From a virus, in the IMG/VR virus record IMGVR_UViG_3300010370_000185, positions 1 through 27,765 of that record: a stretch of DNA of 27,765 nucleotides, one strand, 5' to 3'. Positions 19,355 to 26,868 of the stretch are shown here, one piece after another (the stretch's first letter is position 1; the number at the start of each line of letters is the position of its first letter). The position numbers were made by a program, and so were the translations under genes. Below the pieces are notes generated by a model, which worked only from the letters and a program-made list of their open reading frames with translations, searched no databases and was not told the origin of the DNA.

Positions 19355-19383
19355 TTGACAATATCCCCCGCCTATGCTATAAT
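19355..19383 (+). promoter_or_regulatory. Consensus sigma70-type promoter 1, rightward
   Basis: TTGACA at 19355-19360 and TATAAT at 19378-19383 are separated by 17 bases, a perfect match to the housekeeping consensus. A CGACACGC-like box (GGACACTC, 19331-19338) precedes the -35 by 16 bases. The host polymerase should read it strongly, as expected for an immediate-early promoter. Confidence 0.8.
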
Positions 19384-20368: not shown

Positions 20369-20515
20369 ATGGATAACTTCATAGAGTTTAGCGTGAGCGA
20401 TTGGGGTATAACCTTCAACAGCGCACCGCTATACTTCAACCTATCGTGGGGGCTAATCGCCCTAGCGATTGGCGTAGTAATCGCTCGCAAGATAATCAAG
20501 GTTAGGCGAGGATAA
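20369..20515 (+). CDS. Small single-pass membrane protein, 48 residues
   Basis: From ATG 20369 to TAA 20515. Residues about 22-40 (YFNLSWGLIALAIGVVIAR) are one hydrophobic membrane segment, followed by a basic tail KIIKVRRG that would stay in the cytoplasm. Such small phage membrane proteins can be holin-like, superinfection-exclusion or anchoring factors; the sequence does not decide. The stop overlaps the next ATG (TAATG), which supports translation. Promoter 5 lies too close to drive it, so it needs a transcript from further upstream. No ribosome site is visible. Confidence 0.5.
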   Translation: MDNFIEFSVSDWGITFNSAPLYFNLSWGLIALAIGVVIARKIIKVRRG

Positions 20516-20748
20516 TGACACCCTTCAACCTAACCACCCACGAGGGCGCGAATCCTGATGATTTCATCATAGTGCTAACGCCCAACGAAATGGAATACCT
20601 ACGCACTAGCTTACGCAACGAGTCGGCACGACTCAAGCGAGAAGGCTTCACAGGGCTTCAAGCCTATGTGGATAACCTTAGAGATAAGGTGTCCAACATG
20701 ATGATAGAGCAAGCCCAACAGAGATTTGACAGCAAGGCTAAAGTGTAG
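20515..20748 (+). CDS. Small early protein, unknown
   Basis: A 77-residue protein, TAATG-coupled to the gene before. An N-terminal part with FIIVLTPNEMEYLRTSLRNE is followed by helices (LQAYVDNLRDKVSNMMIEQA) and a charged end. The mix of acidic and basic helix suggests a small dimer or helical bundle. Promoter 6 lies inside its 3' end and extends just past its stop. No family recognised. Confidence 0.65.
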   Translation: MTPFNLTTHEGANPDDFIIVLTPNEMEYLRTSLRNESARLKREGFTGLQAYVDNLRDKVSNMMIEQAQQRFDSKAKV

Positions 20749-20754
20749 TACAAT
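20726..20754 (+). promoter_or_regulatory. Promoter 6, before the amidoligase gene
   Basis: TTGACA at 20726-20731, exactly 17 bases, then TACAAT at 20749-20754. Transcription would start near 20761, giving a leader of about 30 bases with the ribosome site at 20770-20782. It gives the amidoligase and amidotransferase genes their own promoter. Confidence 0.75.
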
Positions 20755-20769
20755 TAGACAACGACAACA

Positions 20770-20782
20770 CCTAGAGGGGGTG
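20770..20782 (+). promoter_or_regulatory. Ribosome site of the amidoligase gene, shared 13-mer
   Basis: CCTAGAGGGGGTG precedes ATG 20790. The same 13 bases occur at 22012-22024 before the amidotransferase gene, so the two partner genes share one initiation signal and may be made at matched levels. Confidence 0.7.
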
Positions 20783-20789
20783 AGATAAT

Positions 20790-22016
20790 ATGTCTGATGA
20801 AGAAGATGAAGTCACCACGCACCAATGCGTAGTGTGTGACGGACAGTATGAAGAAGATGACCTTAGCACCAACGACGACGGCGATTGGATATGCTCTGAT
20901 TGTATCCGCACTTGCGAGCGTTGCGAGCGTATCGGTAGTCACCAAGACGATTGGTATGTAGTAGACGACTACTCGTGGTGCGAGGGTTGCTGGGAAGACC
21001 ACTCATGGACTTGTAGGCGTTGCGACTATTGCTATGACGGCGATAGAATTGGCTACAATACAGTATTCGGTAACTCGTGGCGTGAGGATTGGTGCGAGCA
21101 TTGTATCAGCGACAACGCCCACTATTGCGATAACTGTGACGAATACACGACAGATGACCATGAAGGGTGCGCTCGTTGTGGTGAGAATGAGGATAGTAGC
21201 GGTATTATCCACAACTACTCACACAAGCCTAACCCTATATTTCATGGTACTAACGACAGCAACCTGTACATGGGCTTTGAGCTGGAGATGGAACTCAACA
21301 ACACCAACGATTTCAGGGGTGCTGTATCTCTGGTCAAGCCACTTGAAGAAGCAGATGTATGCTATCTAAAGTCTGACGGAAGTATTAGTGGGCAGGGCTT
21401 CGAGTTAGTGACACACCCACATACGCTCTATGCGTATGAGCAAGCCAATGACTTGTGGAATTATATCGAGAGACTACGCACCGAGTTCAATGCTCGCTCG
21501 TGGGACACCGACTCATGTGGGCTTCATGTCCATGTGTCACGCTCGGCGTTCAAGTCGGGCGCACATACTCACCGATTCCTCTCGCTCATCTATCGTAACC
21601 CTAAAGAGATGATGAAGTTAGCAGGGCGCAAGAACTCAAGATTCGCTAGGTTTGATGATGTCTACAAGCCTGACGACTGGGGTATCCCTCAGATGAACTT
21701 GCGTGATAAAGTCCATGCTGGTTTCCGCACCGAGAGATACTCGGCGGTCAATACCAACAATGACTACACACTAGAATTGCGCTTCTTCCGTGGCAACATG
21801 AAGCGCGAGGGTGTCATGACGGCACTCGAACTATGCCACGCTTCGGTAGAATATACCCGAGACTTGTCCATATCTGATGTCAAGTTAGGTATGCTCAAGT
21901 GGGAATGGTTCGCCGATTGGGTAGAAGCCAACAACGGCAGATACCCTAACCTATACCTACGCATGGCTAGAGTGCCTAGCGTAACTCTCAATACCAAGCC
22001 ACTAATCAACGCCTAG
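20790..22016 (+). CDS. COOH-NH2 ligase (amidoligase) with N-terminal zinc ribbons
   Basis: A 408-residue protein. Residues 1-135 contain eight CxxC pairs (13/16, 35/38, 42/45, 64/67, 75/78, 102/105, 113/116, 127/130), about four zinc-binding ribbons. Residues 160-340 are an amidoligase domain of the glutamine synthetase-like fold: GFELEME (162-168), KSDGSISGQGFELVTHP (194-210), CGLHVHVS (243-250), RYSAVNT (316-322) and TLELRFFRG (327-335). Family members use ATP to join a carboxyl to an amine, making peptide or isopeptide bonds. Linkage to class-II glutamine amidotransferases is known from comparative genomics. Here that partner follows directly. The substrate is unknown; the zinc ribbons may hold a protein or nucleic-acid target. 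Confidence 0.85.
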   Translation: MSDEEDEVTTHQCVVCDGQYEEDDLSTNDDGDWICSDCIRTCERCERIGSHQDDWYVVDDYSWCEGCWEDHSWTCRRCDYCYDGDRIGYNTVFGNSWREDWCEHCISDNAHYCDNCDEYTTDDHEGCARCGENEDSSGIIHNYSHKPNPIFHGTNDSNLYMGFELEMELNNTNDFRGAVSLVKPLEEADVCYLKSDGSISGQGFELVTHPHTLYAYEQANDLWNYIERLRTEFNARSWDTDSCGLHVHVSRSAFKSGAHTHRFLSLIYRNPKEMMKLAGRKNSRFARFDDVYKPDDWGIPQMNLRDKVHAGFRTERYSAVNTNNDYTLELRFFRGNMKREGVMTALELCHASVEYTRDLSISDVKLGMLKWEWFADWVEANNGRYPNLYLRMARVPSVTLNTKPLINA

Positions 22017-22024
22017 AGGGGGTG
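22012..22024 (+). promoter_or_regulatory. Ribosome site of the amidotransferase gene, shared 13-mer
   Basis: CCTAGAGGGGGTG, the same 13 bases as at 20770-20782, here containing the TAG stop of the amidoligase. It begins 15 bases before ATG 22027. Confidence 0.7.
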
Positions 22025-22026
22025 TT

Positions 22027-22941
22027 ATGTGTCTATTAGTTGTCTGTAAGCCTAACGCTATACCAAAGCGCGAGGAACTTACAGAAGGCGCGTGTTCTAA
22101 TCCACACGGCTACGGGTTCGCCATGATAATTGACGGCAAGATATTCCGTTATCGTACCATGTCTGCTCGTAAAGCCGTGAGTAAGTTTATACATATGCGC
22201 CAACAATATCCACAAGGTTATGCCATCTGGCACGCTCGTTATGCTACGCATGGTGTAAAGAATGAGGATAACTGTCACCCATTCCAAGTGGGTGATGATG
22301 TTGATACTGTACTAGCGCACAATGGTGTGCTAGATACTTTCATAGCCAATGGAGATAAGCGTAGCGATACGCGTGTGTTCGCTGAGGACACGCTTCCACG
22401 GCTAGGTGGTGTCTTAGCCCTAGAGGACGAGAACATCTACCGCATGGTTGAGGGGTGGGCAAGCGGTTCTAAGATAGCCGTGCTCACCACCAACCCTAAA
22501 GCCCAATACCAACTGTATCTACTCAACGAACGGCTAGGTCATTGGGACGACAATGGTGTATGGTGGAGTAATTCTTCTTATAAACGAAGCACCTATTCGC
22601 ATAAGACTTATTACTCGCCAGCACCTATCACTACCGCTACCACTAAGCCTACTAACGAGGCGGACTATGTACTAGAACAAGAGTACTACAATGACCTTCT
22701 CCTAAAGGGAGACGACGAGTACCTAGTGATAGACCAATGCCCCTCTTGCGAGGCTCTAGTAGATATTGACAGAAGCTCAGAGTACTGCCAGTACTGTGAC
22801 ACTTGTATGTCATGCTCTAGCACATGGCAAGATTGCCTGTGTTACACACCACACTCAGCCCGCGAGAAGCATAACGAACTTGACTTTGACAACCAATGGG
22901 TAAGAGTGTATAATAAATCATACGACCCAATACTTTACTAA
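22027..22941 (+). CDS. Class-II glutamine amidotransferase-like protein
   Basis: A 304-residue protein starting MCLLVV, with Cys2 as the N-terminal nucleophile once Met is removed. NPHGYGFA (25-32), WHARYATHG (68-76), CHPF (83-86), AHNG (97-100) and SDTRVFAEDTLP (113-124) follow the Ntn-hydrolase glutaminase pattern. Residues 239-273 add a Cys-rich ribbon (CPSC, CQYC, CMSC, CLC). Glutaminases of this class release ammonia from glutamine. Next to an amidoligase the protein may supply or remove amino groups, or hydrolyse an amide product. There is no synthase domain, so the acceptor must come from elsewhere. It starts 10 bases after the amidoligase stop. Confidence 0.82.
   Translation: MCLLVVCKPNAIPKREELTEGACSNPHGYGFAMIIDGKIFRYRTMSARKAVSKFIHMRQQYPQGYAIWHARYATHGVKNEDNCHPFQVGDDVDTVLAHNGVLDTFIANGDKRSDTRVFAEDTLPRLGGVLALEDENIYRMVEGWASGSKIAVLTTNPKAQYQLYLLNERLGHWDDNGVWWSNSSYKRSTYSHKTYYSPAPITTATTKPTNEADYVLEQEYYNDLLLKGDDEYLVIDQCPSCEALVDIDRSSEYCQYCDTCMSCSSTWQDCLCYTPHSAREKHNELDFDNQWVRVYNKSYDPILY
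22886..22914 (+). promoter_or_regulatory. Promoter 7, perfect consensus, inside the amidotransferase end
   Basis: TTGACA at 22886-22891, 17 bases, TATAAT at 22909-22914. Both boxes match the consensus fully. It lies in the last codons of the amidotransferase gene and would start a message near 22921 for the small genes from 22967. Confidence 0.75.
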
Positions 22942-22966: not shown

Positions 22967-23239
22967 ATGACAACCAGCACAACAGAAGTAGTAGCCGAAC
23001 AACTACGCACCCTAGCACTTGTACTAGACCTTGAGTCTGTACGCCAAAGCATAAGCGACGAGCCTGAGTACCTACCTTATGGCGCAATCGTCAAAGCACT
23101 ACCAGACCAGACACGCTTCAAGCCTAAGTCTATGTGGGTATCACTAGGCGACGGCACTTACCGCCACCTCAATGGCAAGAAGGGATTGGTTACAACACAT
23201 GACAGACTCGACGGATACACCGAAGTCATCTTCCAGTAA
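22967..23239 (+). CDS. Small early protein, unknown
   Basis: A 90-residue protein from ATG 22967, with a purine-rich GAGAGAGAATAAAG before it. The first 30 residues are a helix (STTEVVAEQLRTLALVLDLE). Then come YGAIVKALPDQTRFKPKSMW and a beta part with SLGDGTYRHLNGKKGLVTTH. No family recognised. It is the first gene behind promoter 7. Confidence 0.65.
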   Translation: MTTSTTEVVAEQLRTLALVLDLESVRQSISDEPEYLPYGAIVKALPDQTRFKPKSMWVSLGDGTYRHLNGKKGLVTTHDRLDGYTEVIFQ

Positions 23240-23438: not shown

Positions 23439-23759
23439 ATGATAGGCTTATGTACTGGACACCCTAACCCAGACTTGTGGTATCCTGAACAGCCACAGGG
23501 CAGACCCTCTAATGCCAAGCGCAAGCAACTTGCTGAACAGGTAATGCTTGCCTTGGCTATCTGTCAAGAGTGTCCCGTCAGGCAACAATGCCTAGACGAG
23601 GGTATGCGCCCTGAGAATCTTGACTACGGAATATGGGGTGGCTTGATGGCTGGAGAACGCATAGTTATCTCTGGCGTAAAGGCTAACTCAACAACCCGAA
23701 CCGATGCGATAGTGTTCGCAGAAGGAGTAAGGAAATGGCAAGAAATATTATTAGACTAG
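23439..23759 (+). CDS. WhiB-like iron-sulphur transcription regulator
   Basis: A 106-residue protein with four cysteines at 5, 42, 45 and 51 in the pattern C-x36-C-x2-C-x5-C, and GIWGG at 64-68. These are the [4Fe-4S] ligands and the turn motif of the Wbl family, which is confined to actinobacteria and their phages. Wbl proteins bind the housekeeping sigma factor region 4 and adjust transcription. Phage-borne copies such as WhiBTM4 are known to inhibit host WhiB function and cause superinfection exclusion. This one could redirect host polymerase early in infection. It is the best host marker in the window. Confidence 0.9.
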   Translation: MIGLCTGHPNPDLWYPEQPQGRPSNAKRKQLAEQVMLALAICQECPVRQQCLDEGMRPENLDYGIWGGLMAGERIVISGVKANSTTRTDAIVFAEGVRKWQEILLD

Positions 23760-24339: not shown

Positions 24340-24532
24340 CTATCAGAAGGCTATGGATATCAGGGGAAACCCAACAACTGTATGCCCATGTAGTTCAGAG
24401 ATATGGAACCTCAAGACTATCTTCAACAAAGATGATGGCACGATAGAGTTGTACTTTACTGACATGGAGTGTGCTCAATGTGGTACACTGGCTACCGCGC
24501 CTACCCCTGAGGGTAGTACGCTGGAGGGATAA
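24302..24532 (+). CDS. Small zinc-ribbon protein (VCPC...ECAQCG type)
   Basis: A 76-residue protein if GTG 24302 is the start; ATG 24245 would add 19 residues and overlap the gene before by 95 bases. The core RPDY-like KPDYQKAMDIRGNPTTVCPC, then IWNLKTIF and FTDMECAQCGTLATAPTP, is one I recognise from many phage genomes, where proteins of this type begin close to the KPRHI segment. CPC and CAQC could bind one zinc ion. No function is established to my knowledge. Its TAA stop lies one base before the next ATG. Confidence 0.7.
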   Translation: MEKPRHITELKPDYQKAMDIRGNPTTVCPCSSEIWNLKTIFNKDDGTIELYFTDMECAQCGTLATAPTPEGSTLEG

Positions 24533-24533
24533 T

Positions 24534-24707
24534 ATGCCAACGTATGAATACAGATGTGGTAAGTGCGACTCACTTACTATACTTTCCCGTAGCATAGATG
24601 AACGAGATGAACCAGTCTCGTGTGTCTGTGGCTTTGAGTCAACAAGAATATACAACGCACCCGGAATCCAGTTCAAAGGTACTGGATTCTATAAAACAGG
24701 AGGATAA
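24534..24707 (+). CDS. FmdB-type zinc-ribbon protein
   Basis: A 57-residue protein starting MPTYEYRCGKCDSLTILSRS. It has CGKC (8-11) and CVC (30-32) as zinc ligands and ends APGIQFKGTGFYKTGG. This is the FmdB putative regulatory protein pattern (MPxYEYxCxxC, a second Cys pair, APxIxFKGxGFYxT). Family members are small and abundant in bacteria and phages; a regulatory role is presumed rather than shown. The second Cys pair is CVC rather than the usual CxxC. GGAGGG lies six bases before the start. Confidence 0.8.
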   Translation: MPTYEYRCGKCDSLTILSRSIDERDEPVSCVCGFESTRIYNAPGIQFKGTGFYKTGG

Positions 24708-26466: not shown

Positions 26467-26868
26467 TTACTTATCCCACTTATCTCTCAGTACTAGTAGT
26501 GCTATGATTGCATAGTTAGCTAAGTCTTTGAAAGAATCCTCAAGGGATTCGTATTCAGCATTGCGCTTGTTATCAATTAGATTATTGATACGAGCCACTT
26601 TATCATGTATCCTAACACGTAAGCCATTAACAGGCCCACCAGGAGCGTCCGCAATATTACGGGGCCCATAGTCACGATGCTTCTTAAGTAGTACCGACAT
26701 AAGTTCATCATAGATTATCCTAACGTCTTCTTCGAATCGGGTTGGGTCACGCGGTAACTCTTCTTGCTCAAGAGGGGTACGGATAGGGTGACCGTAAGCG
26801 TCCCGTCCTCTTTGTTGATGGACGTAATTTTGTAGCCCATCCCAGCTAGGTGTTCTGTAATCTGCCAT
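26467..26868 (-). CDS. DUF1599-like (nucleotide-modification-associated) protein
   Basis: A 133-residue protein. Residues about 45-130 contain LLKKHRDYGPRNIADAPGGP, then NGLRVRIHDKVARINNLIDN and LEDSFKDLANYAIIALLVL. This is the DUF1599 pattern (KxxDYG, then RxxDKxxRxxNL, then DLANYAI), a MazG-like helical fold linked with nucleotide modification or clean-up in phages. The first 45 residues (GRDAYGHPIRTPLEQEELPR) are extra and may be disordered. GAGGAG lies very close to the start, so the start is less sure. A shorter overlapping frame at 26715..26885 competes with the N-terminus. Confidence 0.75.
   Translation of the reverse strand: MADYRTPSWDGLQNYVHQQRGRDAYGHPIRTPLEQEELPRDPTRFEEDVRIIYDELMSVLLKKHRDYGPRNIADAPGGPVNGLRVRIHDKVARINNLIDNKRNAEYESLEDSFKDLANYAIIALLVLRDKWDK

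Follow-up and report, generated by a model that had tools for sequence, protein, structure and literature searches.

Organization of the locus

The window, an IMG/VR fragment, comprises 27.8 kb (27,765 nt). On its + strand an amidoligase gene (20790..22016, ATG start, 408 aa) is followed, after a gap of 10 nt, by a class-II glutaminase gene (22027..22941, ATG start, 304 aa, Met-Cys at the N-terminus), both recognized as ORFs and by Pfam. An earlier note on this DNA had described these adjoining genes, and both reading frames are open where it placed them. It had also described a 13-base ribosome site common to both genes, which was found as an exact repeat: the sequence CCTAGAGGGGGTG lies at 20770..20782 (+) as a ribosome-binding-like site for the amidoligase gene, and a second exact copy at 22012..22024 (+), overlapping the amidoligase stop codon, is the putative ribosome site of the glutaminase gene. 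The whole window holds no other exact copy. G-rich Shine-Dalgarno-like sites recur in relatives. The perfectly spaced promoter reported upstream of the pair is present as a putative sigma70-like sequence, TTGACA-17-TACAAT (20726..20754, +), which agrees with 11 of 12 consensus positions and lies directly upstream of the pair, overlapping the 3′ end of the preceding ORF. Promoter-like sites are frequent in this region (20 seen versus 8.3 expected from shuffling, both strands counted), so the candidate promoter of the pair is not unique. Two 12/12 promoter-like sites, TTGACA-17-TATAAT, occur at 19355-19383 (+) and 22886-22914 (+).

The preceding ORF (20515-20748, +) encodes 77 aa. Of 108 loci, 76 have it immediately upstream of the pair and 32 have no recognizable copy, and its C-terminus is not conserved; on these grounds it was rejected as a peptide substrate. 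A 90-aa ORF (22967-23239, +) follows the pair immediately in 77 related loci. Its product is conserved, with the motif GTIVKALPxQxRFKPKSMWVSLGDGxYKHLTGKKGL, and has no Pfam or PHROG match. This ORF was likewise rejected as a peptide substrate: it is conserved, yet recognized in just those 77 loci. Downstream of the pair lie a WhiB-like gene (23439-23759, +; in 102 related loci), a gene for a small FmdB-type zinc-ribbon protein (24471-24707, +; conserved in 92 related loci) and, on the opposite strand, a gene with a profile match to DUF1599, ‘nucleotide modification associated domain 1’ (26467-26868, −). The DUF1599 gene is kept in three relatives without the pair (L246, L268 and OX376640), and a functional link between it and the pair was rejected for that reason. 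Linked to the pair we found neither a substrate gene nor an export signal nor a gene of wall synthesis, in agreement with the earlier note, to which no substrate was visible. An actinobacterial host is likely, given the WhiB gene and a terminase that shares 47% identity with those of Streptomyces phages. We infer an early position of the pair solely from its orientation, divergent to the terminase, and from its WhiB neighbor.

Motifs and predicted folds of the two proteins

The amidoligase scores above the curated cut-off of Pfam Amidoligase_2 (PF12224; E=1.2e-5, 25.8 bits, cut-off 22), and the GS/GCS2-type motifs ExE, DGS, HxH, R and TxExR are invariant. In the window protein these are GFELE (162-166), DGS (196-198), GFE (203-205), GLHVH (244-248), R280, N321 and TLELR (327-331); among 117 ligases, E164, E166, D196, S198, G203, E205, H246, H248, R280, N321, T327, E329 and R331 are ∼100% conserved. 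The ligase domain of GS/GCS2 fold occupies residues about 160-400. An AlphaFold model (pLDDT 87) gave YbdK, glutamine synthetase and PafA/Dop as top PDB fold matches, with the amidoligase of phage tf also among the matches, which bears out the assignment as a COOH-NH2-type ligase. BFVD already holds a phage ‘Amidoligase enzyme’ with 47% identity. Residues about 10-130 form a Cys array, in which, as had been reported, eight CxxC pairs precede the catalytic motif without overlapping one another (13/16, 35/38, 42/45, 64/67, 75/78, 102/105, 113/116 and 127/130); a ninth, 78/81, overlaps and is poorly conserved (7%). Nearly all members of the branch containing the window and the mobile-element copies, those in ICE and prophages included, have the array. 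The array resembles LIM domains through a weak profile match (E 0.007) and partial fold matches (E about 0.03), and as a LIM-like array it would presumably bind metal.

The glutaminase matches GATase_6 (E=7.6e-7) and GATase_4 (E=3.4e-6), both above cut-off. Cys2 (the predicted nucleophile), the GlmS-like R..T.G, HP, HNG and SD motifs and an Ntn fold place it among the class-II glutamine amidotransferases (PF13522/PF13230). The corresponding residues are R71/T74/G76, H84, N99/G100 and D114, of which R71/T74/H84/N99/G100 align with RWATHG...HPH...HNG of GlmS, the window protein reading RYATHG. Among 120 glutaminases, R71, T74, G76, H84, H98, N99, G100 and D114 are 98-99% conserved and C2 is present in 97%; the shortfalls across motifs include truncated or misstarted ORFs. 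The AlphaFold model (pLDDT 80) matches the folds of GlmS/GFAT, PurF and EgtC, and the GlmS glutaminase domain ranks first by fold and among the first by sequence. The protein is thus a Cys2 class-II glutaminase, as had been claimed, and its Cys-rich tail is also confirmed, with eight Cys at 238-272 (238/241, 254/257, 260/263 and 270/272). In actinobacterial genomes every glutaminase copy (21 of 21) has three or more CxxC, and only 2 of 59 other copies have even one; judged from sequence, the tail is an actinobacterial trait.

The earlier note had named loss of the catalytic Cys2 or of the ligase acidic residues as evidence that would count against it. Such loss was not seen; the motifs are intact and near-invariant across more than 110 relatives. 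Between close relatives, differences at third codon positions are two to three times as frequent as at first and second positions, which indicates purifying selection. Taken with the intact motifs and the predicted folds, this pattern suggests that both enzymes are very probably active.

Occurrence of the two genes as a unit

Using either the ligase or the glutaminase as query, we assembled 126 dereplicated loci, mostly IMG/VR contigs. Both genes are present in 118, and in all 118 the ligase comes first and the glutaminase is the next gene downstream, in the same orientation. This is the opposite of what the earlier note had named as its other possible refutation, namely that homologous phages never have both genes. 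Of the eight loci without a full pair, seven run into the end of their contig, and the remaining one belongs to a Clostridioides phage. In this phage (AR1086-1, L005:4689-6878) the amidoligase has neither a Cys array nor a glutaminase beside it, and the next gene is nucleotidyltransferase-like. Since a sample seeded with the ligase or the glutaminase is biased, the terminase was taken as an independent anchor. On this basis 28 loci extend far enough past the terminase to be scored: 23 had both genes (in 3 of these the glutaminase is cut by the contig end), 5 had neither and none had one alone. Adjacency is also kept in 73 of 77 assessable loci on bacterial contigs. The amidoligase and the glutaminase are a genuine unit, present both or not at all and in one order, and the functional pair proposed earlier is upheld to this extent.

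In the five pair-less loci and in OX376640, other small genes occupy the interval between the terminase and WhiB genes, and this interval is a hotspot of gene exchange. A ∼207-aa protein with an HETAH metallopeptidase-like motif was observed there in L244, L245, L246 and L268. The five loci may belong to one clade, in which case the absence of the pair may be one event.

Distances between ligases correlate with those between glutaminases beyond the terminase background (partial correlation 0.75, partial Mantel p 0.001). However, values of 0.65-0.75 are obtained in the same test for the 90-aa and SLT genes close by. Because some adjacent unrelated genes correlate nearly or equally well, we rejected a specific co-evolution of the two enzymes and take the correlation as linkage, not as evidence of contact.

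Known relatives of the pair

The pair is a member of a phage family that has been described before. Mycobacteriophage Marvin (gp105/gp106) and its cluster relatives (19 records) likewise have an amidoligase followed by an adjacent Cys2 class-II glutaminase on the same strand, with identities to the window proteins of about 33% (ligase) and 30% (glutaminase). Marvin gp106 has an 8-Cys tail like that of the window. In gp105 the Cys array is shorter (10 Cys, 4 CxxC) and a C-terminal extension is present, and its gene lies at the genome end. The order is also the same in LUZ24 (gp18/gp19) and phiEco32 (gp84/gp83), both with distant similarity to the window proteins (for phiEco32, P-values of 8e-5 for the ligase and 4e-6 for the glutaminase). 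Unlike in the window, the ligases of these two phages have no N-terminal Cys array and the glutaminase is much longer. Their ‘peptidoglycan modification cassette’ (LUZ24 gp16-gp22, phiEco32 gp77-gp86) adds a COOH-NH2 ligase, a RimK-like ATP-grasp protein and GGCT. Profiles for the COOH-NH2 ligase (PF14395) and GGCT (PF06094) detected the LUZ24 and phiEco32 controls and matched none of 20 near-full-length relatives of the window, itself a fragment; the RimK-like profile (PF08443) gave no match and was uninformative, as it also missed the LUZ24 control. The window-type pair is a stripped version next to the LUZ24/phiEco32 cassette, and since the cyclotransferase and second ligase are absent from 20/20 relatives, the role of the cassette may not carry over.

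In the Methylophilales phages MEP401/402, gp06/gp07 are adjacent PF12224 and PF13522 genes near replication genes (PMC10580990), as in the window; they differ in having few CxxC pairs in both proteins and a large N-terminal extension. Mobile elements of Firmicutes and actinobacteria and ∼150-kb mycobacterial plasmids also carry the pair in the same order and with close spacing. The bacterial-contig copies share the ligase Cys array with the window, while Firmicute glutaminases are without the Cys tail. Where the neighbors of bacterial copies can be recognized, most are genes of mobile elements (DUF4192, Prim-Pol, SSB, ArdC, integrase and serine recombinase) and not wall genes; they were rejected as a clue to the substrate. 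Some Nocardia have 2-3 pairs in tandem (three each in L274 and L280), and the bacterial contigs L278 and L289 have two each. A separate substrate per copy would be one possible explanation.

The idea of the pair is not new: LUZ24, phiEco32, Marvin and MEP401/402 all have it, and an action on the cell wall has been suggested. Such pairs have been described as a putative cell-wall-modification or superinfection module (PMC10580990, PMC5498523, PMC11945000). In the literature we found no experiment on, and no substrate for, any member. PADLOC profiles of known anti-phage defense systems gave no significant match (best E 0.016, partial). The takeover or defense-evasion system suggested in the earlier note gained no support from the analysis.

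Proposed function

We tentatively propose, as a reading that is quite possible though still short of probable, that the two proteins form a glutamine-dependent, ATP-driven two-component amidoligase. After removal of Met, Cys2 of the glutaminase would attack glutamine and yield glutamate and ammonia. The GS/GCS2-fold ligase would use ATP to activate a carboxylate as acyl phosphate, which ammonia (or another small amine) would convert to a carboxamide. An ATP-dependent ligase and a separate glutaminase also make a carboxamide in MurT-GatD, which amidates peptidoglycan D-iGlu (PMC6113224); the folds there are unrelated (Mur ligase, class-I glutaminase), so this is an analogy only. The LIM-like array, probably zinc-bound, would dock either the partner or a peptide or protein substrate. 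We infer the physical complex, the ammonia transfer and the zinc binding from the features above. The target might most plausibly be a free carboxylate of the host peptidoglycan stem peptide, and the purpose might be to alter the wall at an early stage of infection, for instance to counter superinfecting phages or foreign lysins.

A related chemistry would involve no transfer of free ammonia. EgtA of ergothioneine synthesis is a GCS2-family ligase, and by analogy the ligase could add a gamma-glutamyl group to an amine, with an EgtC-like Ntn partner later removing it. EgtC and YbdK are indeed among the fold matches of the glutaminase and the ligase, respectively, gamma-glutamyl cyclotransferase is part of the LUZ24/phiEco32 cassettes, and an EgtC-like gamma-glutamyl hydrolase would have similar glutaminase motifs, which counts against our proposal. 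However, the window glutaminase carries the GlmS-type RYATHG and ranks closest to GlmS by fold, and none of the 20 near-full-length relatives has the cyclotransferase. A steady glutaminase without a cyclotransferase favors ammonia-to-carboxamide chemistry, and we consider the gamma-glutamyl route unlikely. The Cys array makes modification of a protein a serious rival reading, if a somewhat unlikely one. Here the array would recruit a specific protein of host or phage, and the pair would amidate that protein, or couple it to an amine, at an Asp/Glu side chain or the C-terminus, disabling a host function or a defense protein. The presence of the LIM-like array, by fold and sequence, in nearly all relatives, the GS-fold protein ligases PafA/Dop among the fold matches and the retention of the pair by many kinds of mobile elements all fit this view. 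Against it, the LIM resemblance is weak, the array is not needed for the core reaction since the LUZ24 and phiEco32 ligases do without it, and no Pup-like conserved small protein was found, the 77-aa neighbor having no conserved C-terminus and being missing from 32 of 108 loci. A narrower version, in which the pair is a compact amidation system spread across mobile elements and apart from the LUZ24-type cassette, its array aiming the ligase at a specific host (perhaps defense) protein whose carboxylates are amidated with glutaminase-derived ammonia, seems distinctly improbable to us. Modification of a nucleotide or DNA base had been among the candidate roles in the earlier note; the pair would amidate a carboxyl-bearing base or nucleotide and so evade restriction. 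The DUF1599 gene in the window is in its favor, but that gene does not track the pair and no base-modification gene was identified beside the pair, which leaves nucleic-acid modification very unlikely.

Amidation of a carboxylate by the two-component enzyme is the reading that we prefer. Phages that infect Actinobacteria, Methylophilales, Pseudomonas, Escherichia and Acinetobacter carry the pair, as do ICE/prophage-like regions and plasmids. Because its genes occur together or not at all, and because it consists of two genes and dispenses with the rest of the cassette, the pair offers a convenient minimal system for finding the substrate, and the substrate of this minimal pair would also inform the larger cassettes.
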